Assembly (NCBI GenBank): GCA_029866205.1
Contig: JARWZT010000008.1
Span: forward strand, 310,001-374,000
Reading direction: 5' to 3'
From: Rhodoferax sp.
GTDB taxonomy: Bacteria > Pseudomonadota > Gammaproteobacteria > Burkholderiales > Burkholderiaceae_C
DNA: 64,000 nucleotides
Shown here: piece after piece, positions 12,424-56,988 of the stretch
Numbering within the stretch: the first letter of the stretch is position 1
How the letters are laid out: each line of letters opens with the position of its first letter
The notes under the pieces: generated by a model
What the model was told of the DNA's origin: nothing
Database searches by the model: none
The model's input: only the letters and a program-made list of their open reading frames with translations
Position numbers and translations under genes: made by a program

Positions 12424-12477
12424 CGGTGGACCTCTTTTGGTAAAAAACCAAATATAGAAATCCACTGTGACTTTAAG

Positions 12478-15867: not shown

Positions 15868-17645
15868 GCGTGTTCCGTAGCGAGTTGGTCAAGCAGGTTG
15901 GCAAAGGCGCGCACGCACAGGTCGGCGTCGTCGTTGGTCATGGATTCGAGTGGGTTGTGGCTGATACCGGCATTCAGGCCACGCACAAACAGCATGGCCT
16001 GGGGCATGATTTCGTGCAGCTTCATGGCGTCGTGGCCAGCGCCACTGGGCAGGTAAAACAGCGGCAGGCCCAGTCCCTGCACGGCCCTTTCCCACTGCTT
16101 TTGCCACGCCGCAGCGCTGGGCGCCGCAGCAGCGCGCATGGTTTCTTCCAGGGTGCAACGCAGACCCCGGCGCGCGCAAATGGCGTTGAGTTCAGCGCGG
16201 ATGTCGGCGGCGCAGGCATCACGCACCGCATCGGTGGTGGCACGCACATCCAGGCTAAAAGTGCAGCGACCAGGGACCACGTTCATGGAGCCATTGGGCA
16301 CGTGGAGCATGCCCATGGTCGCCACCGCATCAGGCACGGCGGCAGCCCGTTTTTCGGCAAATAGCACCAACTCAGCCACCGCCGTGGCGGCATCGCGTCG
16401 CTGGTCCATGGGCGTGGTGCCGGCGTGGCTGGCCATGCCAACCACTTCACCCAGATAGCGCACGCTGCCATTGATGGAGGTGACGATGCCCAGCGGCATG
16501 TCCAGCGCATTGAGCACCGGCCCTTGCTCGATATGCACTTCCACAAAGCCCTGGTAGCGCGCTGGGTCGCGCCGCAGTGCGGAAACATCAGCCGCGTTCA
16601 ATCCTGCGTGGGCCATGGCCTGGCGCATGGAAACGCCATCGGCATCGTGCTGGTCCAGCCAGGCCGGGTCAAACTGACCGGTGAGCGCCCCCGAACCCAA
16701 GAACACCGCCTTGTAGCGCTGGCCTTCTTCTTCCGAAAATCCGACGACCTCGATGTCGAAGGGCAGGCGCCGCCCGCTGCGATGCAAGGCACGCACACCG
16801 GCCAGGGGTACCAAAATCCCCAGCCGGCCGTCGTATTTGCCGCCGTTGCGCACCGTGTCAAAGTGGCTGCCGGTGAGCAGGCGTGGCGCCGTACGGTGGT
16901 GGCCGTGGTACACGCCCACCACGTTGCCCACGGCGTCTTGGGTCACCTCGTCAAAGCCGCACTCTGCCATTAAGGTCTGCAGGTCGCGAGCCACGGCGCG
17001 GTGGGCATCGGTCAGATACATGACGGTGAGCTCGCCACGTTCGGCGTAGCCCGGGTCGGAATGCACAGCCAGACGTTCGGCCCAGTCCCAAACCAAGTTG
17101 CCGAGTTCGGGCTCGTGGCCCAGTTTGTCGTTCAGGCGAATTTCAGCGATGCGGTGAATGTTGCGCAGGCATTCGGCCCGCTCAAAATCGGGGTGGTTGT
17201 CGAGTCGGCGTGCCAGGGTGGTAATGATCTCTGCCTTGCCCAAACCCAGCCCGCGCGGCCCACGCACTGCCAAAATGAACGGAAAGCCAAAGCGCGCGTT
17301 GTACGCTGCGTTGAGCTGCTGAATGCGGGCAAATTCTTCGGGCGTGCATTCGGTCAGACCGGCCTTGCCCTGCTCATTGCGCGACTCGGCTGTCAAGGTC
17401 TGGCTCACCATGGCTTTGCCGGCCAGCTCCGGATGGGCACGAATCAGCGCGAGCTGGGCGTCTTGCCCCCCTTCGCGCACCACTTGGGCGAGCACCAGCT
17501 TCAGGTGCACCAAGCTGGCAAAAGGCCGGTGTGCGGCCGCCGCGCGGGCAATCCAGGGGGAATGCTCGTAGGTGCCCTCCAGCAGGGCGACGCACTCGTC
17601 GGCCGTGGCGGCATTGAGTTGATCCAGGGTCAGTACAGCAGTCAC
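15864..17645 (-). CDS. uraD-allC: Fusion: OHCU decarboxylase (UraD) + allantoate amidohydrolase (AllC-type M20)
   Basis: This 593-residue protein covers two non-consecutive steps of purine breakdown. Residues about 1-175 are OHCU decarboxylase, which forms S-allantoin; the catalytic His71 lies in RAHPELAGKA, and FPFILAVRG precedes the terminal helix RNIHRIAEIRLNDKL. Residues about 183-593 are a zinc M20 amidohydrolase of the allantoate/ureidoglycolate/N-carbamoyl class, with GSHFDTV (261, 263), YDGRLG, SEEEGQRY and VHIEQGPVL. The GTG at 17645 is chosen because it begins seven bases after the puuE stop and gives the family N-terminus; an in-frame ATG at 17681 would overlap puuE. The intervening allantoinase step is done by PuuE, encoded immediately upstream. 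Confidence 0.88.
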   Translation of the reverse strand: MTAVLTLDQLNAATADECVALLEGTYEHSPWIARAAAAHRPFASLVHLKLVLAQVVREGGQDAQLALIRAHPELAGKAMVSQTLTAESRNEQGKAGLTECTPEEFARIQQLNAAYNARFGFPFILAVRGPRGLGLGKAEIITTLARRLDNHPDFERAECLRNIHRIAEIRLNDKLGHEPELGNLVWDWAERLAVHSDPGYAERGELTVMYLTDAHRAVARDLQTLMAECGFDEVTQDAVGNVVGVYHGHHRTAPRLLTGSHFDTVRNGGKYDGRLGILVPLAGVRALHRSGRRLPFDIEVVGFSEEEGQRYKAVFLGSGALTGQFDPAWLDQHDADGVSMRQAMAHAGLNAADVSALRRDPARYQGFVEVHIEQGPVLNALDMPLGIVTSINGSVRYLGEVVGMASHAGTTPMDQRRDAATAVAELVLFAEKRAAAVPDAVATMGMLHVPNGSMNVVPGRCTFSLDVRATTDAVRDACAADIRAELNAICARRGLRCTLEETMRAAAAPSAAAWQKQWERAVQGLGLPLFYLPSGAGHDAMKLHEIMPQAMLFVRGLNAGISHNPLESMTNDDADLCVRAFANLLDQLATEHA

Positions 17646-17652
17646 AGGCGGT

Positions 17653-18612
17653 TCACTTCCAGACAAAGGCGGTGGCCGCATCAAACGGATGCGTAGCTTT
17701 CCAGTGACGCGCAATATCCACCCGGCGCGCCACCCAGACCCGGTCGTGCAACTGCACATAGTCCAAAAACCGCTGCAGAGCGCGCATGCGCCCGGGCCGG
17801 CCCAGCAGTCGGCAGTGCATGCCAATGCTCATCATGGACGGGCGCTCGGCGCCTTCGGCGTAATGCACGTCAAAGGCGTCGCGCAGGTACTGAAAGAACG
17901 GGTCGCCATGGGAATAGCCCTGGGGCAAGGCAAAGCGCATGTCGTTGCAATCCAGCGTGTAGGGCACCACCAGATGGGGGGCAAGGGCGCCGTCGGTCTT
18001 TTGGACCTGCAGCCAAAACGGGAGGTCGTCGCCATAGTAGTCGCTGTCGTACTCCAGGCCGTGGTCGGCCACCAGGCGGCGGGTGTTGGGGCTGTCGCGC
18101 CCGGTGTACCAGCCCGCAGGCATCTGTCCGGTGAGGTTTTTGATGGCTTGCAGGCCGCGCGCCATGTGCTCAGCTTCCACCGATTCGTTGATGGTCTGGT
18201 AATTGATCCAGCGCCAGCCGTGACAGGCAATCTCGTGGCCCAGCTCGACAAACGCGGCGGCCACTTCAGGGCATCGCTCCAGCGCCATGCCCACGCCAAA
18301 CACCGTAAGCGGCAGACCGCGCTGCTCAAACTCCCGCAAAATGCGCCACACCCCGACGCGCGAGCCATATTCGTAAATACCTTCCATGGTCAGATGGCGG
18401 TCTGGAAACGCAGGCGGGCTGAACATCTCAGACAAAAACTGCTCGCTGCCCGCGTCACCGTGCAGCACCGAGTTTTCGCCCCCCTCTTCGTAGTTCAGCA
18501 CAAACTGCACCGCCACGCGGGCATTGGCCGGCCACTGGGCGTGCGGCGGCGTGCGACCGTAGCCCCGCAAGTCGCGCGGATATCGGGGAGCAGCAGGATC
18601 GGTGGTGCGCAT
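17653..18612 (-). CDS. puuE: Allantoinase PuuE (polysaccharide-deacetylase fold)
   Basis: This 319-residue enzyme hydrolyses allantoin to allantoate and belongs to the carbohydrate esterase 4-like family, unrelated to classical metal allantoinases. The N-terminus YPRDLRGYGRTPPHAQWP and the segment NYEEGGENSVLHGD are diagnostic of PuuE. IACHGWRWINYQTI and GWYTGRDSPNTRRLV carry further conserved positions. It lies between the GntR gene (7-base gap) and the UraD-AllC fusion gene (7-base gap), so the three are almost certainly one transcript. Its product is the substrate of the second domain of the fusion. Confidence 0.94.
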   Translation of the reverse strand: MRTTDPAAPRYPRDLRGYGRTPPHAQWPANARVAVQFVLNYEEGGENSVLHGDAGSEQFLSEMFSPPAFPDRHLTMEGIYEYGSRVGVWRILREFEQRGLPLTVFGVGMALERCPEVAAAFVELGHEIACHGWRWINYQTINESVEAEHMARGLQAIKNLTGQMPAGWYTGRDSPNTRRLVADHGLEYDSDYYGDDLPFWLQVQKTDGALAPHLVVPYTLDCNDMRFALPQGYSHGDPFFQYLRDAFDVHYAEGAERPSMMSIGMHCRLLGRPGRMRALQRFLDYVQLHDRVWVARRVDIARHWKATHPFDAATAFVWK

Positions 18613-18619
18613 GGAAACC

Positions 18620-19345
18620 TCAGGAAACAGGAAGCAGGGCCGCAGACAAGTCAGCGGTGTGGGGGTCTAAATGCAGGTTGTGCTCTACGGCAGCCAGATG
18701 GCTCGCCATCAGCTGCGCCGCGGCGTCCGGGTCGCGTTGCTCCAGCGCGTCAACAATGCGTTCATGCTCTTGCTGCGAGTGGGCCGCTGAATGCGACGAC
18801 TGGTACATCAATGCGATCAGCGAGGAGCGACTCAGCAGATCGGCAAGCAGCTGCGCCAGCACCTCATTACCGCCAATTCGCGCCAACACGCCATGAAAAT
18901 CCGCCAACAAACGGGTGCGCCCCGGCACATCAGTGCGGGCCACGGCCGCCGCTTCATCGCGCAAATGGGCGCGCAGATCGGCAATCTGGCGGTCGGTAAT
19001 CTGTGCGCACAGGCTGCGCACCATGGCGCACTCGAGCATGGCTCGAACCTGAAACACCTGGCGCGCCTCGGCCACACTGGGTGTGGCCACAAAGGCACCG
19101 CGCGCAGGCTCCAAGGTCACCAGCCGGTCGCGGCTCAACTGGTTGAGCGCCTGGCGCACCAGCGTGCGCGACACATGAAAAATGTCCGCAATTTTTTGCT
19201 CGGACAGCTTGGTGCCCGGCATCAGCCGCCGCTCAATGATGGCCGCAGTGACCGAATCCACAATGCGCGCCGCTGGGCTGGCCGGCGCCGAGCGGCTGGC
19301 GCTGGGGTTGGTGACCCGTTTGAGCGGGGAGCGGGCGATGGACAT
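18620..19345 (-). CDS. GntR family (FCD-type) transcriptional regulator, probable ureide regulator
   Basis: This 241-residue regulator has an N-terminal winged helix-turn-helix (RIVDSVTAAIIERRLMPGTKLSEQKIADIFHVSRTLVRQALNQL, about residues 28-75) and a C-terminal all-helical FCD effector domain. As first gene of the puuE operon it probably controls purine-ureide catabolism and itself. The ATG at 19343-19345 is preferred; the upstream in-frame start at 19369 is a TTG. A TGTATACA palindrome sits 36 bases upstream, matching the GT...AC symmetry of GntR operators. The effector (allantoin, allantoate or glyoxylate) is not known. Confidence 0.9.
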   Translation of the reverse strand: MSIARSPLKRVTNPSASRSAPASPAARIVDSVTAAIIERRLMPGTKLSEQKIADIFHVSRTLVRQALNQLSRDRLVTLEPARGAFVATPSVAEARQVFQVRAMLECAMVRSLCAQITDRQIADLRAHLRDEAAAVARTDVPGRTRLLADFHGVLARIGGNEVLAQLLADLLSRSSLIALMYQSSHSAAHSQQEHERIVDALEQRDPDAAAQLMASHLAAVEHNLHLDPHTADLSAALLPVS

Positions 19346-19380
19346 GCTGCACAGAAGGTCGACGAACAAACGTCGTTCAG

Positions 19381-19710: not shown

Positions 19711-20226
19711 TTGCACAGCAATAGTCCACTCGCCTCACTGCCCCAAGCCACGCTGTCGAAGACATGGCGTCAACGCTTGGTCGTGTTGGCTGCCAACGCC
19801 TTTACATCAGCGTGCTTGCGCTTGGTTCCGCTGATGCCAGCGATCATGGCAGTGTTGCTTTTGGATCGGCGCTACCTCAGAGACTACCGTGTTCACCGTG
19901 CAAAGTTCGAGGTCCACTTTCAGGCCCTGAGCCAGGGACCCGTTGCACACTACCTCAGTGACGTATTCTTGCGCTTCAAGCACGTGCCGGTTACGGTCTA
20001 TGGCGAATGCGTGCAATGTGGCAATTGCTGCCTGAATCGCCAATGTGCATTCTTGGAGAGCCTCGATGGCGGCAAGTTCCAATGTGGGATTTACGGGCGC
20101 TACCTTCGACGCTTTTCCAACTGCGGCTCATTTCCATTGCATGCACATGACATTGAGCGCTACCAGTGCCCCAGCTATTTTGTCGAAGGTGACCCGCGGA
20201 TTCGCTGGCTCAAGGTCGAAAAATAG
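19711..20226 (+). CDS. CxxCxxCC-motif metal-binding protein (YkgJ-like), membrane-anchored
   Basis: This 171-residue protein carries CVQCGNCCLNRQC (CxxCxxCC) followed by CGIYGR, FSNCGSFP and YQCPSY. That is the cysteine pattern of the zinc/iron-chelating family PF03692. A hydrophobic segment near residues 33-51 (FTSACLRLVPLMPAIMAVLLL) suggests membrane anchoring. The start is a TTG at 19711 with GAGG at 19699-19702. The gene opens the lipid locus and is convergent with the glycosyltransferase gene. In several families such iron-sulfur or zinc modules accompany lipid or quinone enzymes, but no reaction is assignable. Confidence 0.75.
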   Translation: MHSNSPLASLPQATLSKTWRQRLVVLAANAFTSACLRLVPLMPAIMAVLLLDRRYLRDYRVHRAKFEVHFQALSQGPVAHYLSDVFLRFKHVPVTVYGECVQCGNCCLNRQCAFLESLDGGKFQCGIYGRYLRRFSNCGSFPLHAHDIERYQCPSYFVEGDPRIRWLKVEK

Positions 20227-20273
20227 CTAGCTTGCCCTCGGTGCATAGCGCAGCCGCGACGGGAGGCGCGAAC

Positions 20274-21500
20274 TCAGGCAATTTGCACGGGCCAAGCCCG
20301 TGCCACTGGAGCCCCTTGCTCCAGCAGTATCTTCTGAAAAATGGACTCGGTCATTTCGACAACCTTGGGCCAACCCAAGGCATGCGCAGTCCGACATCCT
20401 TGCTCTCCAATGGCGCGCATTCGACTGCGATCGCTCAAGAGGATTTGGGCCGCCATGGAAAAACCCGGATCATCGCTCGGCTCTGCGAGCATGCCGTTCA
20501 CACCCGACGTGATCAGTTCTCCTGCAGCCGCATGCCTGAACGCCACAACCGCCAAACCTGAGGCCATGGCCTCAATGGTGACGTTGCCAAAGGTTTCCGT
20601 TTTACTGGCAAACATGAACATGTCGGCACTGGCGTAGTGCTGCGCCAGGTCCTGGCCGACGCGAAAACCAGCAAAGACGATGTCCGGGTGCTTTTGCTGC
20701 AACTCAGCGCGCATGGGTCCGTCACCCACCAAGACCAATTTGAGGTCGGGGTGTTGCAGTTTCATCGCCCGGTAACACGCAATCACTGCACCCAAGTTCT
20801 TCTCCACTGCCAAGCGCCCCACGTAAATCATGACACGGTCTTGTTCTGCGGCACCCCAACTCTGTCGCAATTCTGGCACGCGCTGGGTAGGCGAAAACAG
20901 CCCGATATCGATACCGCGGGGAACCACCGACAGGCGCTTGAAGCCACTGGCGGCAAGCTCGCCTTCGAGCTGCGCGGTCGGCACCATGGTGGCATGGGCT
21001 GAATTGTGGAATTTTTTCATGTACGCCAAAATTGCGCCCCGCAACCAGCCGATGCCATAGTGCTGGCTGTAGGCGTGAAAGTTGGTTCTGAAGTCGGTAC
21101 TGATCGGCAATTTAAGCTTGCGCGCCACCTGCAACGCGGACCACCCCAATGGGCCCTCAGTGGCGATGTGTACGACATCGGGCCGCTGCCGAGTCCAAAG
21201 ACGCAACAGCTCACGCTTGGCCGGCAAGCCCAGGCGCAATTGGCGATAAAAAGGAATAGGCAAACCCCGAACCAGTAGTTCTTGGTAGCCGGCATGGGCC
21301 ATTGCGACATCGGTTCCCGGCTGACGTGGGCGCACCAGCCAAATGACATGGCCACGCGCCTGCAAGCCTTGCACGATTTTTGACAAGGTGTGCGCCACGC
21401 CGTTGATGTCGGGCGGATAGGTCTCGGTCACCACTGCGATGCTCAGCGCAGCTTGCGAATTGCTGATGCGCTCGACCTGAATCTGAGGTTCGGTAATCAT
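20274..21500 (-). CDS. GT4-family glycosyltransferase (possible diacylglycerol glycosyltransferase)
   Basis: This 408-residue GT-B fold retaining glycosyltransferase begins with AIVTETYPPDINGVAHTLSKI, the acceptor-side glycine-rich loop. It has the donor-binding E-x7-E motif in KTETFGNVTIEAMASG. VPRGIDIGLFSP and IYVGRLAVEKN are standard GT4 blocks. No signal peptide is present, so it acts at the cytoplasmic face. The ATG at 21498-21500 is chosen; the open frame extends to 21584 without family character. In other bacteria a GT4 enzyme (Agt) works with PlcP to convert diacylglycerol to glycolipid under phosphate limitation. The presence of a PlcP-like gene 4.6 kb away makes that role plausible but unproven. 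Confidence 0.88.
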   Translation of the reverse strand: MITEPQIQVERISNSQAALSIAVVTETYPPDINGVAHTLSKIVQGLQARGHVIWLVRPRQPGTDVAMAHAGYQELLVRGLPIPFYRQLRLGLPAKRELLRLWTRQRPDVVHIATEGPLGWSALQVARKLKLPISTDFRTNFHAYSQHYGIGWLRGAILAYMKKFHNSAHATMVPTAQLEGELAASGFKRLSVVPRGIDIGLFSPTQRVPELRQSWGAAEQDRVMIYVGRLAVEKNLGAVIACYRAMKLQHPDLKLVLVGDGPMRAELQQKHPDIVFAGFRVGQDLAQHYASADMFMFASKTETFGNVTIEAMASGLAVVAFRHAAAGELITSGVNGMLAEPSDDPGFSMAAQILLSDRSRMRAIGEQGCRTAHALGWPKVVEMTESIFQKILLEQGAPVARAWPVQIA

Positions 21501-21589
21501 GAAAGGACTTTGCCGCAGCAATGCGACCTTTTTATGAACCGATCGTGACGCGCAGATGACGCAAGCGAATTCAAAAACAAACACCTTGC

Positions 21590-21624
21590 AATGTCACTAA
21601 ATTTTCATGCAAAAGCGTGACATT
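21590..21624. promoter_or_regulatory. Inverted repeat AATGTCAC/GTGACATT and possible Pho box
   Basis: AATGTCAC (21590-21597) and its exact complement GTGACATT (21617-21624) lie in the divergent promoter region between the glycosyltransferase and the membrane-protein gene. Inside it, ATGTCAC-TAAA-TTTTCAT (21591-21608) matches the Pho box pattern CTGTCAT-N4-CTGTCAT at 5 of 7 positions in the first half and 4-5 in the second. It could be a PhoB site serving both genes; the match is imperfect. Confidence 0.35.
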
Positions 21625-21684
21625 TCTATGCCAAGGCACGTGGGCGTTGTCGCTCCAGCCTTTGCCTTTTAACCAGGAGTTTTC

Positions 21685-22299
21685 ATGCAATCGTTTTTCC
21701 AACTTGTTAATGTCCAGCGCTGGGACGACCACCGCTACTACCACCATAGCCGGGTTAACCAGGCCTTGCACCTGGTCAGCGCCTTGTCGTTTCTGGTGGC
21801 CTATGTGTTTTTGTTCATTGATCCTGTCGTCTCTGCCCTGATTGCCTGGTTGGTGTCGATGACGACCCGCCAAATCGGCCATTTCTTTTTTGAGCCTAAA
21901 GGTTACGACGAAGTCAACCAGGCTACCCACGAACACAAGGAAGACATCAAAGTGGGCTACAACCTGCAGCGAAAAATTGTGCTGCTGAGCGTCTGCGCCG
22001 CCATCCCGGTGCTGGCCTATTGGATGCCGCAATATCTGCAATGGGCGGTGCCAGAGGCCTACGAGGACACCCCCATCCGCATGACGGCCATGGCCTGGCT
22101 GATTTTGGGGGCCGCCGGACTCACCTTTCGCGTCTTGCAGCTCTGGAAGCAGGACAGCCTGATGGCTGGTCTAGCCTGGGGTTTCAAAATCATTACCGAC
22201 CCGGTGCACGACGTCAAGATGTACCACAAGTCCCCACTGTACCTGTTGCGCGGTCAGTGGCTCGACCCGATGGACCACGTCAAAGGCGCGCCCCATTAA
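21685..22299 (+). CDS. His-rich polytopic membrane protein (distantly DUF962/Mpo1-like)
   Basis: This 204-residue protein has about four membrane segments (near 27-45, 45-65, 93-112 and 130-147). It begins RWDDHRYYHHSRVNQALH and contains RQIGHFFFEPKGYDE. The spacing of His residues at the membrane edge (HxxxxNxxLH and GHxxFE) recalls the DUF962/Mpo1 family, whose yeast member is an iron-dependent fatty-acid alpha-oxidation dioxygenase. Similarity is limited to these motifs. The start has AGGAG at 21677-21681. The stop overlaps the convergent aminotransferase stop by four bases. A lipid-tail-modifying role is inference from motif and neighbourhood. Confidence 0.65.
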   Translation: MQSFFQLVNVQRWDDHRYYHHSRVNQALHLVSALSFLVAYVFLFIDPVVSALIAWLVSMTTRQIGHFFFEPKGYDEVNQATHEHKEDIKVGYNLQRKIVLLSVCAAIPVLAYWMPQYLQWAVPEAYEDTPIRMTAMAWLILGAAGLTFRVLQLWKQDSLMAGLAWGFKIITDPVHDVKMYHKSPLYLLRGQWLDPMDHVKGAPH

Positions 22300-23972
22300 G
22301 CCCCAGAAAACTTCGCCGCCAGCATCTCTTTAAGTACTTGGCGGCGGATTTTTTTACCGGTTTGGGCCTCCGCAACCCACCACCAACCGTCGGCCTGCAT
22401 GGCCTGGCAAGCCGCGACAAAGCGCTGGCAAAAGTCTTCAAAAGCCGCATTATCAAAATTGAAACTGAAAATCATGCGGCCCGTTCCCACCCAACTGAGG
22501 GCAATTCCTTGCGCTCGCAAATAGTATTGAAGCAACCAGTGGTAGCGACTGGGAATCTCGTACAACACCGACCAAACCGTCTCCATGCCTGCCACGCGGA
22601 CCGGTACGCCTGCAGCCCGAAGCTTGTTATTCAGCAGTACCTGGCGGTCACTCCAAGTTTGCGAGGCAGTCGCGTAGAGAGCCTGCACTTCAGGCGTGTC
22701 CAGCGACTTCAAAAATACGTTCATGGCGCACATCACATAGGGGTGGGCGTTGAAGGTACCGCGAGCGAAGCAAATGTCACCAGGTTTGTCATCCTGGAAG
22801 CGCTTCATCCAGTGCGCCTTTCCACAGATCACTCCCACGGGCAAACCGCCACCCAGTGTTTTGCCGTAGGTGACGAGATCCGCGCGCACACCAAAGTATT
22901 CCTGCGCGCCCCCTTTGGCCAGGCGGAAGCCCAAGAAAACCTCGTCGAAAATCAGTGCAATGCCTTTTGCGGTGCACACGGCACGCAGTTCTACCAACCA
23001 GGCGGTGTAAGCCGCGCGGTCGTAGGCGACATGGCGGGTGCCGTCGATGAGCGTGGAGTCTGTGGGTGCTGCGCGATTGAGGTGCATCGCCTGCAAGGGG
23101 TTGATCAGCACGCACGCTATATCACTGCGGTTGCGCAACACCCGCAGTGTGTTGGGGTGCATCTCATTGAGCGTCAGCGTGTCCTTGGAGGGCGGCATCG
23201 GGTTGCCCGGGCCGGGCTGAACATCGTCCCACCAACCGTGGTACGCGCCCGTAAACCGAACCAGTTTGCGCCTGCGTGTGTGGTAGCGGGCCAAACGCAC
23301 GGCCTGCATCACCGCCTCGGTGCCCGACATATGAAAGGACACCTCGTCCATGCCCGAAATCTTGCACAAGCGCTGGACGTTGTCCAATACGCTGGGGTGA
23401 TAGGAGCCCAGTACCAGGCCCAAAGGCTGCGCCATGGCCGCGCCCTCGGCCATGCTGGCCTTGTAATAGTCCGAGCCAAACAGGTTGACGCCATAGGATC
23501 CCGTGACGTCGATAAAGCGATTACCGTCCAAATCGGTCAGCCACACACCGCTGCTCTCACGCCAAAAGCTGCCAAGCTTGACATACTGGGCCAGCAACTG
23601 CCTGAACTGGTACGGCACGCGGTACTGGCTGATGAGCTGCAAGTCCGACAGCATGGGCCGTGCGGCATCACTGTGGGCCAGGGTCTGGGGGCTTTGCGCC
23701 TTCATCGTGCTGCCGAGTTGCGTCAAGGCGAGGCGGCGGCGTTGCTCGACTGCCAACGGTGCGCCATCAATCGCAAACCAAGTCTTGTCGGGATAGGTGT
23801 AGTTCGGAATCAGTTTGGAGACACGCTTGGCCATCCGCAAATGTCCGCCCAAAGACGGGTACTTCGCCAAAGACAGTTGCAAACGCTGCCATGCTTTGGG
23901 AAGGGTCAGGTAGGTCAACGAAGCCACGCCCGTCCAAACCGCTGCCGAGATAAATGTCTCTGAACCGTCCAT
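22296..23972 (-). CDS. Class III PLP aminotransferase (GSA-aminomutase-like) with N-terminal extension
   Basis: This 558-residue protein is over 100 residues longer than glutamate-1-semialdehyde aminomutase. The C-terminal part (from about residue 130) has the class III core: MSGTEAVMQAVRLAR, FTGAYHGWWDD, IFDEVFLGFRL (Asp343) and the PLP lysine Lys371 in TYGKTLGGGLPVG. The N-terminal 125 residues begin with a hydrophobic segment (ETFISAAVWTGVASLTYLTLP) and a basic region, suggesting membrane association. The start at 23972 is chosen because GGGAG precedes it by eight bases; ATG 23978 is too close to that RBS. A heme-pathway role is unlikely given the extension and the lipid neighbours. The substrate may be a lipid-linked or keto precursor. 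Confidence 0.8.
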   Translation of the reverse strand: MDGSETFISAAVWTGVASLTYLTLPKAWQRLQLSLAKYPSLGGHLRMAKRVSKLIPNYTYPDKTWFAIDGAPLAVEQRRRLALTQLGSTMKAQSPQTLAHSDAARPMLSDLQLISQYRVPYQFRQLLAQYVKLGSFWRESSGVWLTDLDGNRFIDVTGSYGVNLFGSDYYKASMAEGAAMAQPLGLVLGSYHPSVLDNVQRLCKISGMDEVSFHMSGTEAVMQAVRLARYHTRRRKLVRFTGAYHGWWDDVQPGPGNPMPPSKDTLTLNEMHPNTLRVLRNRSDIACVLINPLQAMHLNRAAPTDSTLIDGTRHVAYDRAAYTAWLVELRAVCTAKGIALIFDEVFLGFRLAKGGAQEYFGVRADLVTYGKTLGGGLPVGVICGKAHWMKRFQDDKPGDICFARGTFNAHPYVMCAMNVFLKSLDTPEVQALYATASQTWSDRQVLLNNKLRAAGVPVRVAGMETVWSVLYEIPSRYHWLLQYYLRAQGIALSWVGTGRMIFSFNFDNAAFEDFCQRFVAACQAMQADGWWWVAEAQTGKKIRRQVLKEMLAAKFSGA

Positions 23973-24022
23973 AACCACATCTCCCTAGTAAAGCCTTGTT
24001 TGTATGACTTCAAGGTTAAAAA

Positions 24023-24919
24023 ATGATGACTATCAAAAATACACTGCAATCCATAGGTGCCAACGAAAACCTGAATTTTTTGTTGACCAACCGAATCCCC
24101 CGGCTAGCACTGACCCGCTTTATGGGCTGGTTCAGCCAACGAACCAACCCCTGGGTGCGCGACCTGTCCATCGCCACCTGGAAGCTTTTTGCCGACCTGG
24201 ATCTGTCCGAGGCAAAAAAGCAACGCTTTGACAGCCTGCACGACTGCTTCATCCGCGAGCTCAAGCCTGGCGCCCGTTCGGTGAACCCTGATCCGCGCAC
24301 CTTGGTCAGCCCTTGTGACGGAATCGTCGGTGCCATGGGCCGGGTCGAAGGCGACCGGGTCTACCAGGCCAAGGGCTTTCCTTACAGTCTGACCGACCTG
24401 CTGGGCCCGCTGGGCGCCAACAGTCCGTGGGAAGACGGCATCTTTGTCACCATTCGCATCACCTCGTCGATGTACCACCGGTTCCACGCGCCTTTTGACT
24501 TGCGCCTGCACGATGTGGACTACTTTGCCGGTGACACATGGAATGTGAACCCGATTGCACTGAAGCGGGTAGAAAAGCTTTTTTGCAAGAATGAGCGCGC
24601 CTTGCTGCGCGCTGAAGTGGGCGCTGAGCGCTATCCCGTGGCGCTGGTACCGGTCGCCGCGGTGTTGGTGGCCAGCATCCGGCTGCATGCGCTGGGCGCG
24701 CTATTGGACGCACGCTACGAGGGGCCAGGCCATGTCGCCTGCGACGCGCATTACAAAAAAGGCGAAGAAATGGGCTGGTTCCAGCATGGCTCAACCATCC
24801 TGGTTTTTGCTCCCAAAGGCTTTGCATTTGCCCCAGGCATCGCAGAAGGAGCACCCCTACGAATGGGTCAAGCCCTTTTAAGTCTGCCAATCGCCCAGGC
24901 GCCCACTGGCACGGAGTGA
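24023..24919 (+). CDS. psd: Phosphatidylserine decarboxylase (proenzyme type)
   Basis: This 298-residue pyruvoyl-dependent decarboxylase would convert phosphatidylserine to phosphatidylethanolamine at the inner membrane. The self-cleavage site is GST at 256-258, where Ser257 would become the pyruvoyl group. Asp99 in SPCDGIV and His155 in YHRFHAPF are the expected triad partners. The start is ATGATG at 24023/24026. It is divergent from the aminotransferase across about 50 bases, and its last 42 bases overlap lplT tail-to-tail. Many betaproteobacteria keep another psd near pssA, so this may be a dedicated paralogue acting on a related amino-acid phospholipid; that is inference. Confidence 0.9.
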   Translation: MMTIKNTLQSIGANENLNFLLTNRIPRLALTRFMGWFSQRTNPWVRDLSIATWKLFADLDLSEAKKQRFDSLHDCFIRELKPGARSVNPDPRTLVSPCDGIVGAMGRVEGDRVYQAKGFPYSLTDLLGPLGANSPWEDGIFVTIRITSSMYHRFHAPFDLRLHDVDYFAGDTWNVNPIALKRVEKLFCKNERALLRAEVGAERYPVALVPVAAVLVASIRLHALGALLDARYEGPGHVACDAHYKKGEEMGWFQHGSTILVFAPKGFAFAPGIAEGAPLRMGQALLSLPIAQAPTGTE

Positions 24920-26125
24920 CCAGTAACGCCACTGCACGAAAGCCATGCCAGTGGCAACCAGCAGGCCCAATAGCCATGCCAGTTGGCCCACTTCCAACTG
25001 GGCGTACAGCAAGCCACTGTAAAGCCCCATCATGGCGAGCACGCTGGCGTTTTCATTGGTGTTCTGGACCGAGATCGAGCGCCCTGCGCTTAGCAACCGG
25101 ACGCCGCGGTGCTGCAGCAGCGCATTCATGGGGACGACGAAGTACCCACCCACTGCCCCCAAAACGGCGGTCAGTACCACCGCAGCCTGCCAGTCGTGGA
25201 TGAAAGACATCACGGGCATGAGCAATCCGAGCAAAATACCGACGCCCAAGACTTTGGGTGTTTGTTCCAAGGTGATGGTGCGCGCCGCTACCGCAGCACC
25301 TGCAACAACGCCCACAGCCGTGGCCGCCTGCAGGTAGGCTGCATGTTCCAGAGACAAATGCAAAGCCTCCTGCGCCCAGGCCAGCACCAGTAATTGCAAG
25401 GTGGCACCGACCCCCCAAAACAGCGTCGTGACGCTGAGGCTAATCGAACCCAAAGGGTCGCGCCACAGCGCGGACTGGTCCTGTACAAAACGGTACCCGA
25501 TCATGCGCACATTCCAATCACAATGCGCATTGCCCACGCCGCTGCCCGGGATCAGGACATTCAGTGCCGCGGCTACGCCGTACAAAACAAGCAACGCTGC
25601 GATTGACACAGCCAAAGTTCCCCAGGTCTGCAATCCACTGCCCAGCCAGAGGGAAAAGTCGGACGCCAGCCACAGCGGTCCCACCAAAAAGCCCCCGAGC
25701 ACCACCCCAAACAATGCGGCACATACCGTGCTCACCTCGATCCAGCCATTGGCCCGAACCAACCGGTGCGAAGGCTCCATTTCAGTAACGAGGCCATATT
25801 TCGCAGGCGCGTAGATCGCTGCCCCCAAACCGGCCATCCCAAAGGCCAAAATGGGATTCAAACCGAACAGCATGGCCAGGCAAGCAAGACACTTGATACC
25901 GTTTGCGCCCATCATGACCCACTGCTTGGGCCACCGATCGGCCCAAGCACCCACCCAGGGACCGAGTACCACATACGAAACGGTGAACATCAGCTTCAGC
26001 AGGGGAACCCAATGGGCCTCCTGGTGCTGCTCAAGGAGCGCCGCCATGGCAACCACCATCAGCGCGTTGTCGGCCAACGCCGAGACAAACTGCGCTGCGA
26101 GCAAGACGAAGAAGCCAGGCGCCAC
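24878..26125 (-). CDS. lplT: Lysophospholipid transporter LplT (MFS)
   Basis: This 415-residue major facilitator has about 12 membrane segments. It begins FFVLLAAQFVSALADNALMVVAMAALL and has ADRWPKQWVMMGANGIKC between segments 2 and 3, the LplT signature region, then AAIYAPAKYGLVTEM. LplT flips lysophospholipids inward across the cytoplasmic membrane for re-acylation. In enterobacteria it is paired with the acyltransferase Aas, which is absent here. It lies 19 bases downstream of the PlcP/LpxH-like gene on the same strand, so the two are likely co-transcribed. Its 3' end overlaps psd by 42 bases. Confidence 0.88.
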   Translation of the reverse strand: MAPGFFVLLAAQFVSALADNALMVVAMAALLEQHQEAHWVPLLKLMFTVSYVVLGPWVGAWADRWPKQWVMMGANGIKCLACLAMLFGLNPILAFGMAGLGAAIYAPAKYGLVTEMEPSHRLVRANGWIEVSTVCAALFGVVLGGFLVGPLWLASDFSLWLGSGLQTWGTLAVSIAALLVLYGVAAALNVLIPGSGVGNAHCDWNVRMIGYRFVQDQSALWRDPLGSISLSVTTLFWGVGATLQLLVLAWAQEALHLSLEHAAYLQAATAVGVVAGAAVAARTITLEQTPKVLGVGILLGLLMPVMSFIHDWQAAVVLTAVLGAVGGYFVVPMNALLQHRGVRLLSAGRSISVQNTNENASVLAMMGLYSGLLYAQLEVGQLAWLLGLLVATGMAFVQWRYWSLRASGRLGDWQT

Positions 26126-26144
26126 GGGCTCGGCCTGTCAGCGT

Positions 26145-26945
26145 CTAAGCAACTTCAGCAACGGCTACGGCTTCAGGTACGTGGGCCAAGGGGCGGGCGA
26201 CCGGTATCAGATCGAGCGACTGGTCCCAGTAAATCAATTCCAGGCGGCCATCCATATGTTCGACCAACGCAGATCGGCTTTCGACCCAATCTCCGTCATT
26301 GCAGTACAGCACGCCGTCAATCATGCGAATCTCTGCCCGGTGGATGTGACCACACACCACGCCTTGGTAGCCCCGCTTGTGGGCCTCGTGGGCAACCGCT
26401 TTCTCGAAATCTGCAATAAAGTTGAGCGCTTTCTTGACTTTGCTTTTCAGAAAAGCAGACAAGGACCAGTAGGGCATACCCAGCCGCGCGCGCGCCCGGT
26501 TGAAGTGGCGGTTCAGTCGCAGTGCGAATTCGTACAGATAATCACCCACATAGGCCAACCACTTTGCATACTTCACCACGGCATCGAAATAATCACCATG
26601 AATGAGCAACAAGCGCCGTCCATCCAGGAGCGTGTGACAGGCCTCCTCGGTGACCTCGATACCGCCGAAATGGTGTTCGACAAAACCACGGGCAAATTCG
26701 TCGTGATTTCCCGGGATATAGACGACATGGCAACCCTTGCGGGCCCGGCGCAATAGCTTTTGCACCACGTCGTTATGGGCCTGAGGCCAATACCACTTGC
26801 GCCGCAATTGCCAGCCGTCGACGATATCGCCCACCAGATAAAGGTGGTCGCTGGTGTGCGACTTCAAAAACTCGATCAGCGCTTCCGCTTGGCAGCCAGG
26901 CGTGCCCAGGTGCAAGTCAGAGATAAACACGGCTCGGTAATGCAT
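26145..26945 (-). CDS. Calcineurin-like metallophosphoesterase, PlcP/LpxH-like
   Basis: This 266-residue cytoplasmic enzyme has a full di-metal set: SDLHLGTPGCQAE, VGDIVDGW, PGNHDEFARG, LIHGDYFD and CGHIHRAE. The blocks WYWPQAHNDVVQKLLRRARKG and HLYLVGDIVDGW are what I recall of the phospholipase C PlcP, which strips head groups from phospholipids under phosphate starvation. The broader family is annotated UDP-2,3-diacylglucosamine hydrolase (LpxH). Co-location with a GT4 gene, lplT and psd, rather than lpx genes, favours the lipid-remodelling reading. It is transcribed with lplT. A Pho-box-like site lies about 90 bases upstream. Confidence 0.8.
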   Translation of the reverse strand: MHYRAVFISDLHLGTPGCQAEALIEFLKSHTSDHLYLVGDIVDGWQLRRKWYWPQAHNDVVQKLLRRARKGCHVVYIPGNHDEFARGFVEHHFGGIEVTEEACHTLLDGRRLLLIHGDYFDAVVKYAKWLAYVGDYLYEFALRLNRHFNRARARLGMPYWSLSAFLKSKVKKALNFIADFEKAVAHEAHKRGYQGVVCGHIHRAEIRMIDGVLYCNDGDWVESRSALVEHMDGRLELIYWDQSLDLIPVARPLAHVPEAVAVAEVA

Positions 26946-27080: not shown

Positions 27081-27659
27081 TCAGGTCACCACAGACAGCC
27101 GCAGGCCGGTGTGGGCCTGCAGCAACTCGCACAACTCCTGCGCCGTGGCCTCCAGAGCGCCCGCGTTGACAACACTTAAATCGCCAGGTGCCAGGGGCAC
27201 ACTGGCGGACTGCGAGCGCTGGATTCGCGCTTCCACTTCTGCAGATGTTTCGCGCTGGCGCGCCGTCAGGCGGGCACGCACCGCGGCCTCCGGCGCACTG
27301 ACGTGGAGTACCGCCAGACCTTCAAACAATGCGCGCGCCTGATCGACATAGGCGCGTGAACCGTTGACCATCACCCAGCCGCCACGCCCCTGGATTTCCG
27401 CATGGCGTACACCGTAGTGCAGTCCGTGAGCCTGCCAGTTCAGGGCAAATGCTCCAGCCTGCTGAAGCGCCGAAAATTCATCCACGGTTACGGCCTCATG
27501 GTCTTCGTTGGAGTTACCGCTGCTGCGCGTGACCGTTCGTCTGGCGAAGTACAAGGCAGGCGGTAATGGCAAGCTACGCACATGCCCGCGCAGCCAATTA
27601 AGCAAGCTGTCCTTGCCCACGCCTGAGGGCCCCACCACAAAAATAATTTTTGCACTCAT
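27081..27659 (-). CDS. phnN: Ribose 1,5-bisphosphate phosphokinase PhnN
   Basis: This 192-residue P-loop kinase is predicted to phosphorylate ribose 1,5-bisphosphate to PRPP, the salvage end of the C-P lyase route. The Walker A motif GPSGVGKDS is at residues 10-18, in a guanylate-kinase-like fold. ARRTVTR and the substrate region SSGNSNEDHEAV are typical of PhnN. The start overlaps the DUF1045 stop by four bases, so the pair is translationally coupled. The pair is divergent from phnGHIJKLM. Confidence 0.93.
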   Translation of the reverse strand: MSAKIIFVVGPSGVGKDSLLNWLRGHVRSLPLPPALYFARRTVTRSSGNSNEDHEAVTVDEFSALQQAGAFALNWQAHGLHYGVRHAEIQGRGGWVMVNGSRAYVDQARALFEGLAVLHVSAPEAAVRARLTARQRETSAEVEARIQRSQSASVPLAPGDLSVVNAGALEATAQELCELLQAHTGLRLSVVT

Positions 27660-28372
27660 GAGGCAAATTCAAAACGCCGCACCCACTGAAAATCAGCACC
27701 CGGCGTTTCTTCGGCAAACCATGAAAGCGCGTCTATCTGCAGGCCGTCGGCCAACACGGGCGCAAACCAGTCTTTTGCATGCTGCAGCACCTGTGCGATT
27801 TGGTCTGGCGACAGGCCATCCAGAATGCCCGTCAGAGTCATATGGAACGCAAAGTCCTGCATGACATAGGGATAGCCCCATTGCTCAAGCATCTGCATTT
27901 GGCGGGCGCTCAGACCGCCGCGGCTTCGACGCGCAATTTCGGTGGCCGGCAAGGGCGCAGCACACGGGTGCAAGTGGCGCACGCAGACTTCGGCTAATGC
28001 TTGTAACTGCGGGCAGGGTTGCTTGGGCACCAGAGCCAAGAAATTCCCAACCTTTGCCAACTCCACTGCCACAGTAAAAGGCCCAGCCAACCCCGCAGCC
28101 ACCTCAGCGAAACGGGAATTCAAGGACTGCACATTGCAATCTGCAGCCAATGAAAATGGCGCTTTAAGCGTGCCATGCCAACCGTAACGCCGGGGTTCTT
28201 GGGTCAGCTGCGCAAAGGTGGCAGGCGTCCAACCGTCCACCAGTGGCTGCGTCAGGGCCTGGGCGCTGCGCGGGCACCGTCCCAGCCATTGCGCACCCAA
28301 GAGCCAGCCTGGGCTTTCAGGCGCAGGCGCAAAGTAAGCCGCATGGCGGTAGGCAGATGTCGGGTAATGCAT
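27656..28372 (-). CDS. DUF1045 phosphonate-metabolism protein (2H phosphoesterase-like)
   Basis: This 238-residue protein belongs to the family repeatedly found in C-P lyase clusters (TIGR03223). Two H-x-T motifs, WHGTLKAPF and FHMTLTG, are the paired signatures of 2H phosphoesterases, which cleave cyclic nucleotide phosphates. No phnP (the usual 5-phosphoribosyl 1,2-cyclic phosphodiesterase) is present. This protein, fused by overlap to phnN, could supply that step; this is inference. The ATG at 28370-28372 (MHYPTSAYRHAAYFAP) is the family N-terminus; an in-frame frame extends to 28462 but would overlap phnG antisense. Confidence 0.88.
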   Translation of the reverse strand: MHYPTSAYRHAAYFAPAPESPGWLLGAQWLGRCPRSAQALTQPLVDGWTPATFAQLTQEPRRYGWHGTLKAPFSLAADCNVQSLNSRFAEVAAGLAGPFTVAVELAKVGNFLALVPKQPCPQLQALAEVCVRHLHPCAAPLPATEIARRSRGGLSARQMQMLEQWGYPYVMQDFAFHMTLTGILDGLSPDQIAQVLQHAKDWFAPVLADGLQIDALSWFAEETPGADFQWVRRFEFAS

Positions 28373-28387
28373 GTCTGAGACACAGCG

Positions 28388-28401
28388 TTTGTGGTCACAA
28401 A
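28388..28401. promoter_or_regulatory. Inverted repeat in the divergent phn promoter region
   Basis: TTTGTG-GT-CACAAA is a 6-bp inverted repeat with a two-base spacer. It is centred between the DUF1045 start (28372) and the phnG start (28451). Its location fits an operator controlling both phn transcripts. No phnF regulator gene is in the locus, so the binding protein is unknown. Confidence 0.4.
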
Positions 28402-28450
28402 AGAGAAATATCCACGCCTTAGAGTCCGGCGTAACAACGATAACCCGCGC

Positions 28451-28975
28451 ATGTTGCACCACGATTACAAACCTGCAGACACCGGGTCAAACAGCAACTC
28501 CCTTGGACGCTCCGATTGGATGGCCTTGTTGGCACGCGCGCCAGAGTCGTGGCTGGAGATCCATTTGGCCACCCAATGCGCGGGCGACTTGCAGTGGCTG
28601 CGCCCCTTGGAAACTGGATTGATGATGGTTCAAGGTCGCGCCGGGGGCAGCGGACAGCGATTCAATCTGGGCGAAGTGCGCGTGACCCGCTGCGTGCTCA
28701 AGCCCGACCCGGCGCACACCGGCTGCCACCAGGTCGGCGTGGCCTATGTGATGGGTGGCTCTCACAGGCACGCCCAGCTCGCTGCAATGGCCGACGCCTT
28801 ATTGCAAGAGCCCGCACTGCATGCCCATTGGAGCCATGTGCTGCTGCAACCCCTAAAGCAAATGCAAGATGCCCAGCGGCAGCAGAAAAATGCCCAAGCA
28901 CAGGCGACGCGCGTGGAGTTCTTCACTGTCGCCCGTGAAGCGGGAAATGGTTCCGACGACGAGGGCGATTTTTGA
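28451..28975 (+). CDS. phnG: C-P lyase subunit PhnG
   Basis: This 174-residue subunit of the PhnGHIJ core helps attach the phosphonate to the ribose of ATP. Conserved blocks are LETGLMMVQGRAGGSGQRFNLGEVRVTRC, VMGGSHRHAQLAAMADALLQ and RVEFFTVAR near the C-terminus. It is somewhat longer than E. coli PhnG (150), mainly at the N-terminus. ATG 28451 is chosen; MALLARAPE further in is a possible shorter start. The stop overlaps the phnH start by one base (TGATG). Confidence 0.9.
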   Translation: MLHHDYKPADTGSNSNSLGRSDWMALLARAPESWLEIHLATQCAGDLQWLRPLETGLMMVQGRAGGSGQRFNLGEVRVTRCVLKPDPAHTGCHQVGVAYVMGGSHRHAQLAAMADALLQEPALHAHWSHVLLQPLKQMQDAQRQQKNAQAQATRVEFFTVAREAGNGSDDEGDF

Positions 28976-29592
28976 TGCAGCTGGAACTCAAGAACCTGGG
29001 GCGTGGCTTTGCACAGCCCGCACTGTGCAGCCAGACCGTGTTCCGTCAAGCGTTGGACGCACTCTCGCTGCCCGGACGTGTGCAAGCGCTGGACGCCTCG
29101 AATACCCTGAGCGGCATGCAAGCACCCCAAGCAGCACACCCTGCGGCAGCGGCCTTGTTGTTGGCGCTGCTGGACCAGGATTGCCGGCTGTGGTTGTCGC
29201 CGAGCTTGGCACAGGGCGACGCAGCAGCTTGGTTGCGCTTTCACACCGGTTGCCTGGTGGTGTCGGACCCGGGACAGGCAGACTTTGCCTGGATTGCGTC
29301 GGCGTCCGAGATGCCAGCGTTTGGGGTTTTCGCCCAGGGCACTGCGGAATACCCGGACCAGTCTGCGACCTGCATCTTCCAAGTGGAAAGCCTGAGCGCT
29401 GCTGCACCGCACTGGACCTTGCGCGGGCCGGGCATCAAGGAGCACCTGCAGCTGTGTATCGGCGGACTCCCGCTAGATTTTGCGGCGCAATGGCGCGCTG
29501 GCCAAACGCATTTTCCTTGCGGCATCGATGTCTTTTTCACGCAGGGTGAGGCCTTTGTGGGCCTGCCACGCTCCACCTTGATTGAAGGCTGA
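28975..29592 (+). CDS. phnH: C-P lyase subunit PhnH
   Basis: This 205-residue subunit of the C-P lyase core complex has a PLP-transferase-like fold but no PLP lysine. The N-terminus FRQALDALSLPGRVQAL and the C-terminal PCGIDVFFTQGEAFVGLPRST are characteristic. The ATG at 28975 overlaps the phnG TGA. phnI follows after a five-base gap. It acts in the cytoplasm as a PhnG2H2I2J2 assembly. Confidence 0.94.
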   Translation: MQLELKNLGRGFAQPALCSQTVFRQALDALSLPGRVQALDASNTLSGMQAPQAAHPAAAALLLALLDQDCRLWLSPSLAQGDAAAWLRFHTGCLVVSDPGQADFAWIASASEMPAFGVFAQGTAEYPDQSATCIFQVESLSAAAPHWTLRGPGIKEHLQLCIGGLPLDFAAQWRAGQTHFPCGIDVFFTQGEAFVGLPRSTLIEG

Positions 29593-29597
29593 ACCGC

Positions 29598-30692
29598 ATG
29601 TACGTTGCCGTCAAAGGAGGCGAATCGGCCATTCTGGCCAGCTACGATTTGCTGGCCCAGCAGCGCCGGGGTGACCCTGCGGTAGCCGAGCTAAGCGTCA
29701 CCCAGATCTGCGAACAACTCCGCCTGGCGGTAGACCGGGTGATGACCGAGGGCTCGGTCTACGACCCGCAACTCGCCGCCTTGGCTATCAAGCAAAGCGC
29801 AGGCGACCTCGTTGAAGCGATCTTCTTGCTGCGTGCCTACCGTGCCACGCTCCCGCGCCTGGGGTACAGCGAACCACTGGACACCGGTGCCATGCACATT
29901 GAGCGGCGCATCTCTGCCGCATTTAAAGACTTGCCTGGAGGCCAGGTGCTCGGCCCCACCTATGACTACACCCAACGCCTGCTGGACTTCAGCCTGCTCG
30001 CAAGCGGCGGCACCTTGCCGGCGCCGCGACAGGCCGCAGTCAGCACCGAGGCCACACCGCGGGTGGTCGATCTTTTGCACCATGAAAGCCTGCTGGAAAC
30101 CCAGCTTCCACCCGCAGGCGACCCTGATCCTTTTGACCTGACGCGCCAGCCCCTGCGATTTCCAGCGGATCGCTCAGCGCGCCTTCAAAACCTGGCGCGT
30201 GCCGACGAAGGATTTTTGCTGGCCATGGCCTATTCCACGCAGCGCGGGTACTCGGAAACACACCCCTTTGTCGGGGAAATTCGCTTTGGTGCGGTGGAGT
30301 TGTGCGTCACACCTGAAGAGTTGGGCTTCAGCATTTCGGTGGGCGATCTGGCGGTAACCGAGTGCCAGATGATCAACCAATTTCAGGGCAGCCAGAGCGA
30401 GCCGCCGCAGTTCACCCGCGGCTACGGCCTGGCCTTTGGCCACAGTGAACGCAAATCCATGGCCATGAGCCTGGTGGACCGTGCGTTGCGGGCCGAAGAA
30501 CTTGGCGAAGCAGTCACCTCGCCCGCCCAGATGCAGGAGTTTGTGATGTCGCACAGTGACAGCTTGGAGAGCTCGGGCTTTGTGCAGCACCTGAAACTGC
30601 CGCACTATGTGGACTTTCAGTCCGAACTGGAACTGGTGCGCAAAATGCGCCATGCCATCGCCAAGCAAGGAAACACAGATGCAGCCCCCTGA
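29598..30692 (+). CDS. phnI: C-P lyase subunit PhnI
   Basis: This 364-residue nucleosidase-like subunit displaces adenine from ATP by phosphonate, with PhnG, PhnH and PhnL. The start MYVAVKGGESAILASYDLLAQQRRG and the blocks GYSETHPFVGEIRFG and ITQFQGSQSEPPQFTRGYG-like (here NQFQGSQSEPPQFTRGYGL) are standard PhnI. Length matches the family. The 3' end overlaps phnJ by 14 bases. Confidence 0.95.
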   Translation: MYVAVKGGESAILASYDLLAQQRRGDPAVAELSVTQICEQLRLAVDRVMTEGSVYDPQLAALAIKQSAGDLVEAIFLLRAYRATLPRLGYSEPLDTGAMHIERRISAAFKDLPGGQVLGPTYDYTQRLLDFSLLASGGTLPAPRQAAVSTEATPRVVDLLHHESLLETQLPPAGDPDPFDLTRQPLRFPADRSARLQNLARADEGFLLAMAYSTQRGYSETHPFVGEIRFGAVELCVTPEELGFSISVGDLAVTECQMINQFQGSQSEPPQFTRGYGLAFGHSERKSMAMSLVDRALRAEELGEAVTSPAQMQEFVMSHSDSLESSGFVQHLKLPHYVDFQSELELVRKMRHAIAKQGNTDAAP

Positions 30693-34266: not shown

Positions 34267-34346
34267 GTTTAGTCACCTCGCTGACACACATGCTGCTTAA
34301 AGTCGCGGTCTCCGCTGACCCAAAGGGGGCGTCCCCGACCTCAGAA

Positions 34347-35177: not shown

Positions 35178-35231
35178 TTTCTCACCATTTTTCCATTCCC
35201 TTTTGCTTTTTTTCTAACCTAGGAATTTGTT

Positions 35232-36131: not shown

Positions 36132-36137
36132 TCCCGT

Positions 36138-49701: not shown

Positions 49702-49769
49702 GTGGTTCTCCTGTTGAAGTGATAACGACCTGAATCAAAAATCCAAATTCTTGAGCCACGGGCAAGCCG

Positions 49770-50447: not shown

Positions 50448-50560
50448 AAAGGCAGTGCCTTTCGCAGCTGAATTGCCCACTATGGTGCACGTGAACGCAG
50501 CGCTTCGGTGAGCGGGTAAACACCAGTAAGCGACCGCTTTGGCCCGGCGGCGCGGGCAAG

Positions 50561-51793: not shown

Positions 51794-51854
51794 GGATGAA
51801 AAGCCTCGCTCTTATTTGCTGTGGTTTGCCGGGTTGTTGCCGCACCAACAGGGG

Positions 51855-53153: not shown

Positions 53154-53332
53154 GCGGTGTTTTTTTTCATAAATTCAAAACTGTTTCAGGGGGTCGACAA
53201 ACGACCCAAGGCATCGCGCCCAGCCATTCTGGTTCGTTCATCCCCCGATTATTGACAGGAAGCGCGTGGCCCCGGCTGCAGCCCGGGCACTGCAGGCGGC
53301 CAACCAAGGCCAGGCCTGGCTTTTCGCCTTGG

Positions 53333-56713: not shown

Positions 56714-56770
56714 AGAAATTCAGCAGAAAACCGGCGCTTGCCCAATGGGGAAGCGGGACTCTGTCGTTTT

Positions 56771-56980: not shown

Positions 56981-56988
56981 TTGCGAAC

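Follow-up and report, generated by a model that had tools for sequence, protein, structure and literature searches.

The 64,000-nucleotide stretch of Rhodoferax sp. DNA analyzed here (the window) carries seven genes, A to G, at positions 19711-26945. An earlier note on this DNA had taken them for a candidate phosphate-starvation lipid remodelling locus, and all seven open frames are indeed present. Gene A (19711-20226, forward strand) encodes a cysteine-rich protein of 171 amino acids with a CxxCxxCC motif, for which neither Pfam nor NCBIfam gave a match at E ≤ 0.001. It is followed by B (20274-21584, reverse), a family 4 glycosyltransferase (GT4; PF13692, PF00534, PF13439); C (21685-22299, forward), a histidine-rich, remotely Mpo1-like membrane protein of 204 amino acids; D (22296-23978, reverse), a class III pyridoxal phosphate (PLP) aminotransferase of 560 amino acids with a hydrophobic N-terminal helix (PF00202); E (24023-24919, forward), a second phosphatidylserine-decarboxylase-type enzyme (Psd2) with an HGST motif; F (24878-26125, reverse), an LplT-type lysophospholipid transporter; and G (26145-26945, reverse), a calcineurin-like, PlcP-like metallophosphoesterase. 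The calls of GT4, class III aminotransferase, psd and lplT are backed by Pfam or NCBIfam matches. B and C form one divergent pair, and D and E another. Since the strands alternate, the seven genes are not one operon in the window, and this arrangement was ruled out.

Conservation of the gene set

The distribution of the genes was followed in three samples: 60 genomes of the organism's own family, its own genome counted in; 398 genomes of the phylum, with a threshold of E ≤ 1e-60 for D; and 80 named loci, the best of at least 582 stretches found to encode some D relative in a scan of species genomes. The named loci are the closest relatives and thus not independent of one another; 54 of them are well flanked, with at least 4 kb on either side. 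Forty control regions of 20 kb, chosen manually at round coordinates, were taken from 12 genomes that carry the cluster, and none of them held any of A to G.

B, C, D and E lie near one another in all 14 relatives that were fetched. In the family survey, orthologues of D (E ≤ 1e-200) occur in 15 of the 60 genomes, the next match being at 1.5e-47 within a very long frame, and both C and the E type (E ≤ 7.5e-93) are present in exactly those 15. One such exact co-occurrence would have a chance of 1.9e-14 if the genomes were independent, which they are not. The cluster copy of B is found at E ≤ 1e-118 in all 15; at E ≤ 1e-60, a B-type GT4 is present in 15/15 genomes with D and in 2/45 without it, where the scores are lower. 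G is less selective, occurring in 15/15 genomes with D and 27/45 without. LplT, at an identity line of at least 50% that was chosen after the data had been seen, is found in 9/15 and 4/45, respectively.

The named loci gave the same ranking: D was found in 80, C in 79, E in 77, B in 71, F in 46, G in 35 and A in 13. When only the 54 well-flanked loci were counted, B, C, D and E were each present in all 54, while F was present in 36, G in 29 and A in 10. The B match is merely 31-36% identical in L058 (one of the 54), L059 and L071, and may therefore be another GT4 in these loci. The conserved core is B-C-D-E; LplT and the phosphoesterase are frequent partners outside the core, and the CxxCxxCC gene is an occasional one. 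Co-occurrence across relatives, which the earlier note had proposed to check, thus holds for the core, to which the aminotransferase and the second psd both belong (14/14, 54/54 and the 15/60 co-occurrence), and fails for the seven genes as one conserved set. A was rejected as a core member because so few named loci hold a homologue, although where one is present it lies near or inside the cluster. In L101, L103 and L121 it adjoins D or sits between D and C, and so it may be an optional part. The cluster also appears in metagenome-assembled genomes titled Bordetella parapertussis (L067) and Akkermansia muciniphila (L111); it is otherwise seen in environmental betaproteobacteria, and these labels are probably wrong.

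Twenty-five of the 398 phylum genomes (own included) hold D, all at E ≤ 2.2e-178. Of the other 24, two belong to the own family, one to the own order and one to the own class, and the remaining 20 come from other classes. These wider loci have both C and E along with D in 23 cases; in the 24th, L173, the contig ends inside the next gene. LplT was found in two and G in one, all in the own family or order (L221, L223). A Pmt-type methyltransferase gene adjoins C in 14 of the 24, all from families f38, f45 and f48 (14/14 there), compared with 0 of the 94 loci L031 to L124 and 1 of the 40 controls. The two Pmt-type proteins tested scored 156 and 138 bits, below the PmtA cut-off of 390 bits, with PmtA still the best model. 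In the loci of families f39 and f13 (L173, L237, L238, L240, L244, L248, L249), a protein of about 950 residues lies beside D on the same strand. Its C-terminal part is a GT4, which replaces the separate GT4 gene (the L173 copy is cut by the contig end); its N-terminal part looks PHP-like by eye, and Pfam reports nothing there. A hydrolase-GT4 fusion of this kind would mirror the G and B pair. An ornithine-lipid synthase gene, OlsF, directly follows C in L237 (841 bits, cut-off 620), and in L248 C is followed by a match with 87% identity to that gene. On a plasmid record of the alphaproteobacterium Sphingomonas parapaucimobilis YK209, the genes stand in a row as archaetidylserine decarboxylase, aminotransferase, hypothetical protein and methyltransferase, the first of these being the name given there to the E-type protein.

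Protein families of the locus

G had been described as PlcP/LpxH-like. Its scores against two LpxH models were 52.8 of 134 bits and 44.6 of 190.35 bits, far below both cut-offs, while a separate LpxH-like gene of the same genome reached 188.9 bits, itself just under 190.35. G is 55% identical over 239 amino acids to a Sinorhizobium meliloti homologue and 28% identical over 140 amino acids to its own genome's LpxH-like protein. The S. meliloti record holds one G match (E ≤ 1e-40), beside genes for an acyl-homoserine-lactone synthase and a LuxR-type protein. We take these neighbours to be sinI and sinR, and since they adjoin the match we take the gene to be SMc00171. According to an excerpt of PMC3596328, SMc00171 is a phospholipase C of the Pho regulon, and a validated PlcP of Pseudomonas aeruginosa is given as 46% identical to the S. 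meliloti PlcP in an excerpt of PMC8528852. LpxH was rejected as the identity of G because of both low model scores, the low identity to the own LpxH-like protein and the existence of that separate gene. Judged by its sequence, G is PlcP-like and not LpxH; the PlcP side of the earlier description holds, and no grouping with LpxH was found. When relatives of G are named in the sources, the names are LpxH or UDP-2,3-diacylglucosamine hydrolase or diphosphatase (best 120 of at least 8000 listed). By a comparison of positions, 10 of the 42 genomes that hold G have a G-type gene no more than 10 kb from a pstS above its cut-off. The S. meliloti record with the PlcP homologue (L246, CP090106.1; 3.7 Mb) is titled pSymB; judged by its size, it is probably a mislabelled chromosome.

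Among NCBIfam models, the two best for B are lipid glycosyltransferases, and both scores (149 of 480 and 113 of 400 bits) are below the cut-offs. F exceeds the cut-off of the LplT model NF008397 (451 vs 297 bits) and is the second copy of its genome, a further LplT-like gene lying elsewhere (G000:C21).

The solved sequence nearest to D is the AMT domain of mycosubtilin synthase (6kfm, 6kfu; E 2.1e-63), ahead of glutamate-1-semialdehyde (GSA) aminomutases, and the same domain ranked first in a Foldseek search of folds. Such AMT domains aminate keto-acyl chains. They sit in polyketide synthase and nonribosomal peptide synthetase megaenzymes, whereas D is a protein on its own that has a hydrophobic helix at its N-terminus and is extended by about 130 residues ahead of its Pfam match. 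In the predicted structure (mean predicted local distance difference test score, pLDDT, 83.9), a helix of residues 6-39 comes first and is hydrophobic by eye to about residue 30. The PLP lysine region (Y371-G372-K373) and D345 are invariant in the alignment. In a 41-row tree with a midpoint root, the D sequences formed one clade (100/99; L020 on a long branch), and HemL-like sequences split from them with 97/95. D shares the class III fold and the PLP lysine region with HemL, but it scored 168.4 bits against a HemL cut-off of 527.3 and lies in another clade, on which grounds HemL was rejected; a separate HemL-like match is present in the same genome (G000:C23). The "unusual aminotransferase" of the earlier note, for which a comparison with GSA aminomutases had been suggested, thus stands apart from them in the tree.

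For C, the earlier assignment to Mpo1/DUF962 held in part. The window's protein scores 22.3 bits against PF06127, under the cut-off of 24, while 29 of 37 aligned C sequences, the window's included, match that family at E ≤ 0.001. Yeast Mpo1 carries out 2-hydroxy-fatty-acid dioxygenase chemistry. Residues H16, H20, H29, H66 and E70 are invariant in all 37 sequences. The model of C is helical (pLDDT 87); it had no fold match in the PDB at E ≤ 0.001 (best E 1.2), and a fold search against viral models gave no match of use. Among the best 120 of at least 8000 relatives, none has a Pfam domain, and the named ones are hypothetical proteins apart from one uncharacterized membrane protein.

E exceeds the cut-off of TIGR00163 (PS_Dcarbxylase; 145.8 vs 111.75 bits). 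All 14 aligned sequences share D99, H152, H155 and S257; these Asp, His and Ser residues are the Psd catalytic residues, and E also has a GS cleavage site. Solved Psd structures (6l06, 7cnw, from Escherichia coli) thus resemble E in family model and catalytic residues; they differ in that E forms a separate subfamily with HGST and with three cysteines (75, 188 and 240) that are invariant in the 14 sequences and absent from the aligned solved Psd. These cysteines and the HGST motif mark the subfamily, in which a metal site or an altered pocket is conceivable. Each of the 15 family genomes holds another Psd match, at E ≤ 5.6e-26 except in G036, where it is a fragment at a contig end, and E is 32% identical to the other match of its own genome.

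Promoter sites and neighbouring genes

A position weight matrix was derived by expectation maximization from 30 pstS promoters of the family. The resulting motif, TGTCAY-N4-CTGTCAYA, has a site in 30/30 of these promoters and matches the Pho box consensus CTGTCATNNNNCTGTCAT quoted in an excerpt of PMC8528852. Promoter gaps were counted over 95 loci, of which 21 left the B-C count and eight left the E-D count due to a missing gene or a pair that is not divergent. A score of 10 bits was reached by 48 of the 74 B-C gaps. Random 250-base stretches reached it in about 1% of 285 cases, and mononucleotide shuffles in five of 740.

In the window itself, six sites on either strand reach 9 bits, and three of them, the best included, lie in the B-C gap: at 21544 (forward, 9.2 bits), 21592 (reverse, 10.1 bits) and 21616 (forward, 13.4 bits). 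The listed GTG start of B is residue 1, whereas the alignment has an invariant Met at residue 29, with an ATG near 21500; the listed start is therefore probably too early, and the divergent gap spans 184 bases (21501-21684). Of the 24 wider loci, 17 have a site of at least 10 bits upstream of B, C or D; one of these sites is at the limit, and some overlap start codons. Such sites occur in 3.5% of 114 random windows; with up to three chances per locus, about 10% of loci would be expected to have one by chance. At the level of the DNA motif the locus thus appears to be under PhoB control, and binding of PhoB to these sites is probable.

Among 57 well-flanked loci (43 named and 14 others), genes for UDP-glucose dehydrogenase were found in 21 (1/40 controls), OlsB-type genes in 12 (0/40) and PPK2 genes in 11 (0/40). 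PhoX was found in seven (1/40), a difference that is not significant (p = 0.13). These and the other neighbour families were first noticed in the very loci that later served for counting them, and only the 40 controls are independent.

The adjacent carbon-phosphorus (C-P) lyase locus and the more distant PhoD had both been noticed earlier, and both were recovered. PhnN, PhnG, PhnH, PhnI, PhnJ and PhnK lie at 27081-32375 (PhnN at 155.9 bits vs a cut-off of 156) and PhoD at 10645-12465. The phosphonate region as a whole (27081-37849) runs from PhnN through a Phn-operon protein and PhnG, H, I, J and K to an amidohydrolase-family gene and a phosphonate-type ATP-binding cassette transporter. The second-best site of the window (12.7 bits; 34271-34288, reverse) is near these phosphonate genes, as would fit a C-P lyase region controlled by phosphate. 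On the other side, purine and ureide breakdown genes occupy 15864-19369: an OHCU decarboxylase fused to an allantoate-amidohydrolase-type domain (15864-17825), the allantoinase PuuE (17653-18612) and a frame that is GntR-like by eye (18620-19369). The far end (48028-63990) encodes formate-tetrahydrofolate ligase, DNA polymerase III alpha and type II/IV secretion proteins (secretin, T2SSE), for which no link to the locus was seen.

Interpretation of the locus

We consider the locus very probably to be a module of phosphate-starvation lipid remodelling. This claim, made at the level of the module and already proposed in the earlier note, is well supported because the core is conserved, G is PlcP-like and the PhoB-type motif recurs in the B-C gaps; the nearby UDP-glucose dehydrogenase, OlsB-type and PPK2 genes agree with it. 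The fuller statement, that this is a PhoB-controlled membrane-lipid remodelling module of two arms, the second being amine formation by C, D and E, is tentative, and as a whole we are somewhat more doubtful than confident of it.

The first arm would be of a known type. At low phosphate, G would cut phospholipid to diacylglycerol, B would add a sugar to give a phosphorus-free glycolipid, and F would return lysophospholipids for re-use. Protein family, promoter and neighbours all suggest lipid replacement in the style of the PlcP-Agt pathway. That pathway, of Sinorhizobium, Phaeobacter, SAR11 and Pseudomonas, shares with the locus a PlcP-like phosphoesterase, a GT4 and PhoB-type boxes, as well as UDP-glucose dehydrogenase and ornithine-lipid genes often nearby (PMC8528852 and PMC4796936, excerpts); UDP-glucuronate, the product of UDP-glucose dehydrogenase, is a donor in it (PMC8528852, excerpt). 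To these, the core of the locus adds a second Psd, an aminotransferase and an Mpo1-like membrane protein, none of which is named as part of the pathway in the excerpts of PMC8528852 and PMC4796936.

In the second arm, C, D and E would successively modify a single membrane-bound substrate and so provide it with an amine. C, as an Mpo1-like histidine-rich membrane oxygenase, would form a carbonyl; D, anchored in the membrane and closest to AMT domains, would transaminate it; and E, as a pyruvoyl decarboxylase of the Psd family, would remove the carboxylate. In some lineages (e.g. the alphaproteobacterium Sphingomonas), the Pmt-type enzyme encoded alongside would then N-methylate the amine. That genes for an oxygenase-like membrane protein, a transaminase and an amino-acid-type decarboxylase are so closely linked, accompanied by N-methyltransferase or ornithine-lipid genes according to lineage, fits an amine on a membrane lipid, and an amine-bearing lipid is the most likely product of C-D-E. 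We infer the enzyme activities, the order of the steps, the substrate and the phosphorus-free nature of this amino-lipid alike.

The first arm follows a known style, and C-D-E is, as far as was searched, the new part. No description of the C-D-E set was found in the open-access literature; most subscription papers lay outside the search, and the set may be described there. The terms sought for the set are absent from the main text of an aminolipid review (PMC11631085), and an excerpt of PMC9239053 deals with an ornithine lipid. It is possible but rather doubtful that C-D-E represents a pathway, widespread and so far undescribed, to a lipid with an amino headgroup and no phosphorus that substitutes for phosphatidylethanolamine (PE) or phosphatidylcholine (PC) at phosphate starvation.

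Several observations weigh against the two-arm scheme. Twenty-six of the 74 B-C gaps score below 10 bits. Among E-D gaps no more than 20 of 87 attain that score, and the one in the window lacks such a site (1.7 bits). B, C, D and E alternate in strand, so that they are no single operon in the window. C is linked to Mpo1 weakly, and no solved fold matches its model; D has no carrier-protein fusion, unlike AMT domains, and a GT4 was not found in the fetched stretch of four of the 24 wider loci (L225, L235, L236, L239). Finally, E could simply be a phosphatidylserine decarboxylase.

This last point leads to the simplest rival, in which E merely makes PE: as a plain decarboxylase under phosphate control, it would raise the turnover of PE, and via Pmt of PC, for PlcP, while D and C would modify an acyl chain or a long-chain keto lipid, e.g. 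to form a beta-amino or sphingoid-like chain. E does pass the curated Psd cut-off with its catalytic residues kept, the Pmt-type gene does adjoin C in many wider loci, and keto-acyl chains are what the AMT domains nearest to D act on. Nevertheless, we regard this reading as unlikely, since all 15 family genomes hold another Psd match (one of them the contig-end fragment), extra PE at phosphate shortage would be odd, and E has HGST as well as three invariant cysteines, the latter absent from the aligned solved Psd.

Less probable still is that C-D-E is a stand-alone unit with some other membrane or small-molecule task, to which closeness to phosphate genes was added later in betaproteobacteria. 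The restriction of LplT and G to the own family or order among the wider loci, and a GT4 that varies in kind and place, speak for such a unit, while the excess of Pho-like sites over chance upstream of B, C or D in those same loci speaks against it. Modification of lipopolysaccharide or lipid A by dephosphorylation, glycosylation and amine decoration, rather than of glycerolipids, would suit the GT4, the phosphoesterase, the nearby UDP-glucose dehydrogenase and the lptF/lptG genes near the Sphingomonas copy, but is very improbable given that G resembles PlcP and is not LpxH, that the metabolism to which LplT, Psd, Pmt, OlsB and OlsF belong is that of glycerolipids or aminolipids, and that the two best models of B (below cut-off) are lipid glycosyltransferases. 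Plasmalogen, hopanoid-amine and serinol-lipid chemistries, considered from recall, were dropped because no supporting gene was seen.

In poor waters and soils, many microbes get by with phosphorus-free membranes. If C-D-E make an amino-headgroup lipid of the kind described, they could be a source of the unassigned aminolipids AAL2-4 of phosphorus-starved marine bacteria (PMC4796936, excerpt). Protein family C, named hypothetical or uncharacterized in the sources, would gain a function, and two misleading names would be corrected, LpxH for G and archaetidylserine decarboxylase for E. Should C, D and E make an amino-lipid, they would serve as its gene marker across many betaproteobacteria and several families belonging to other classes.

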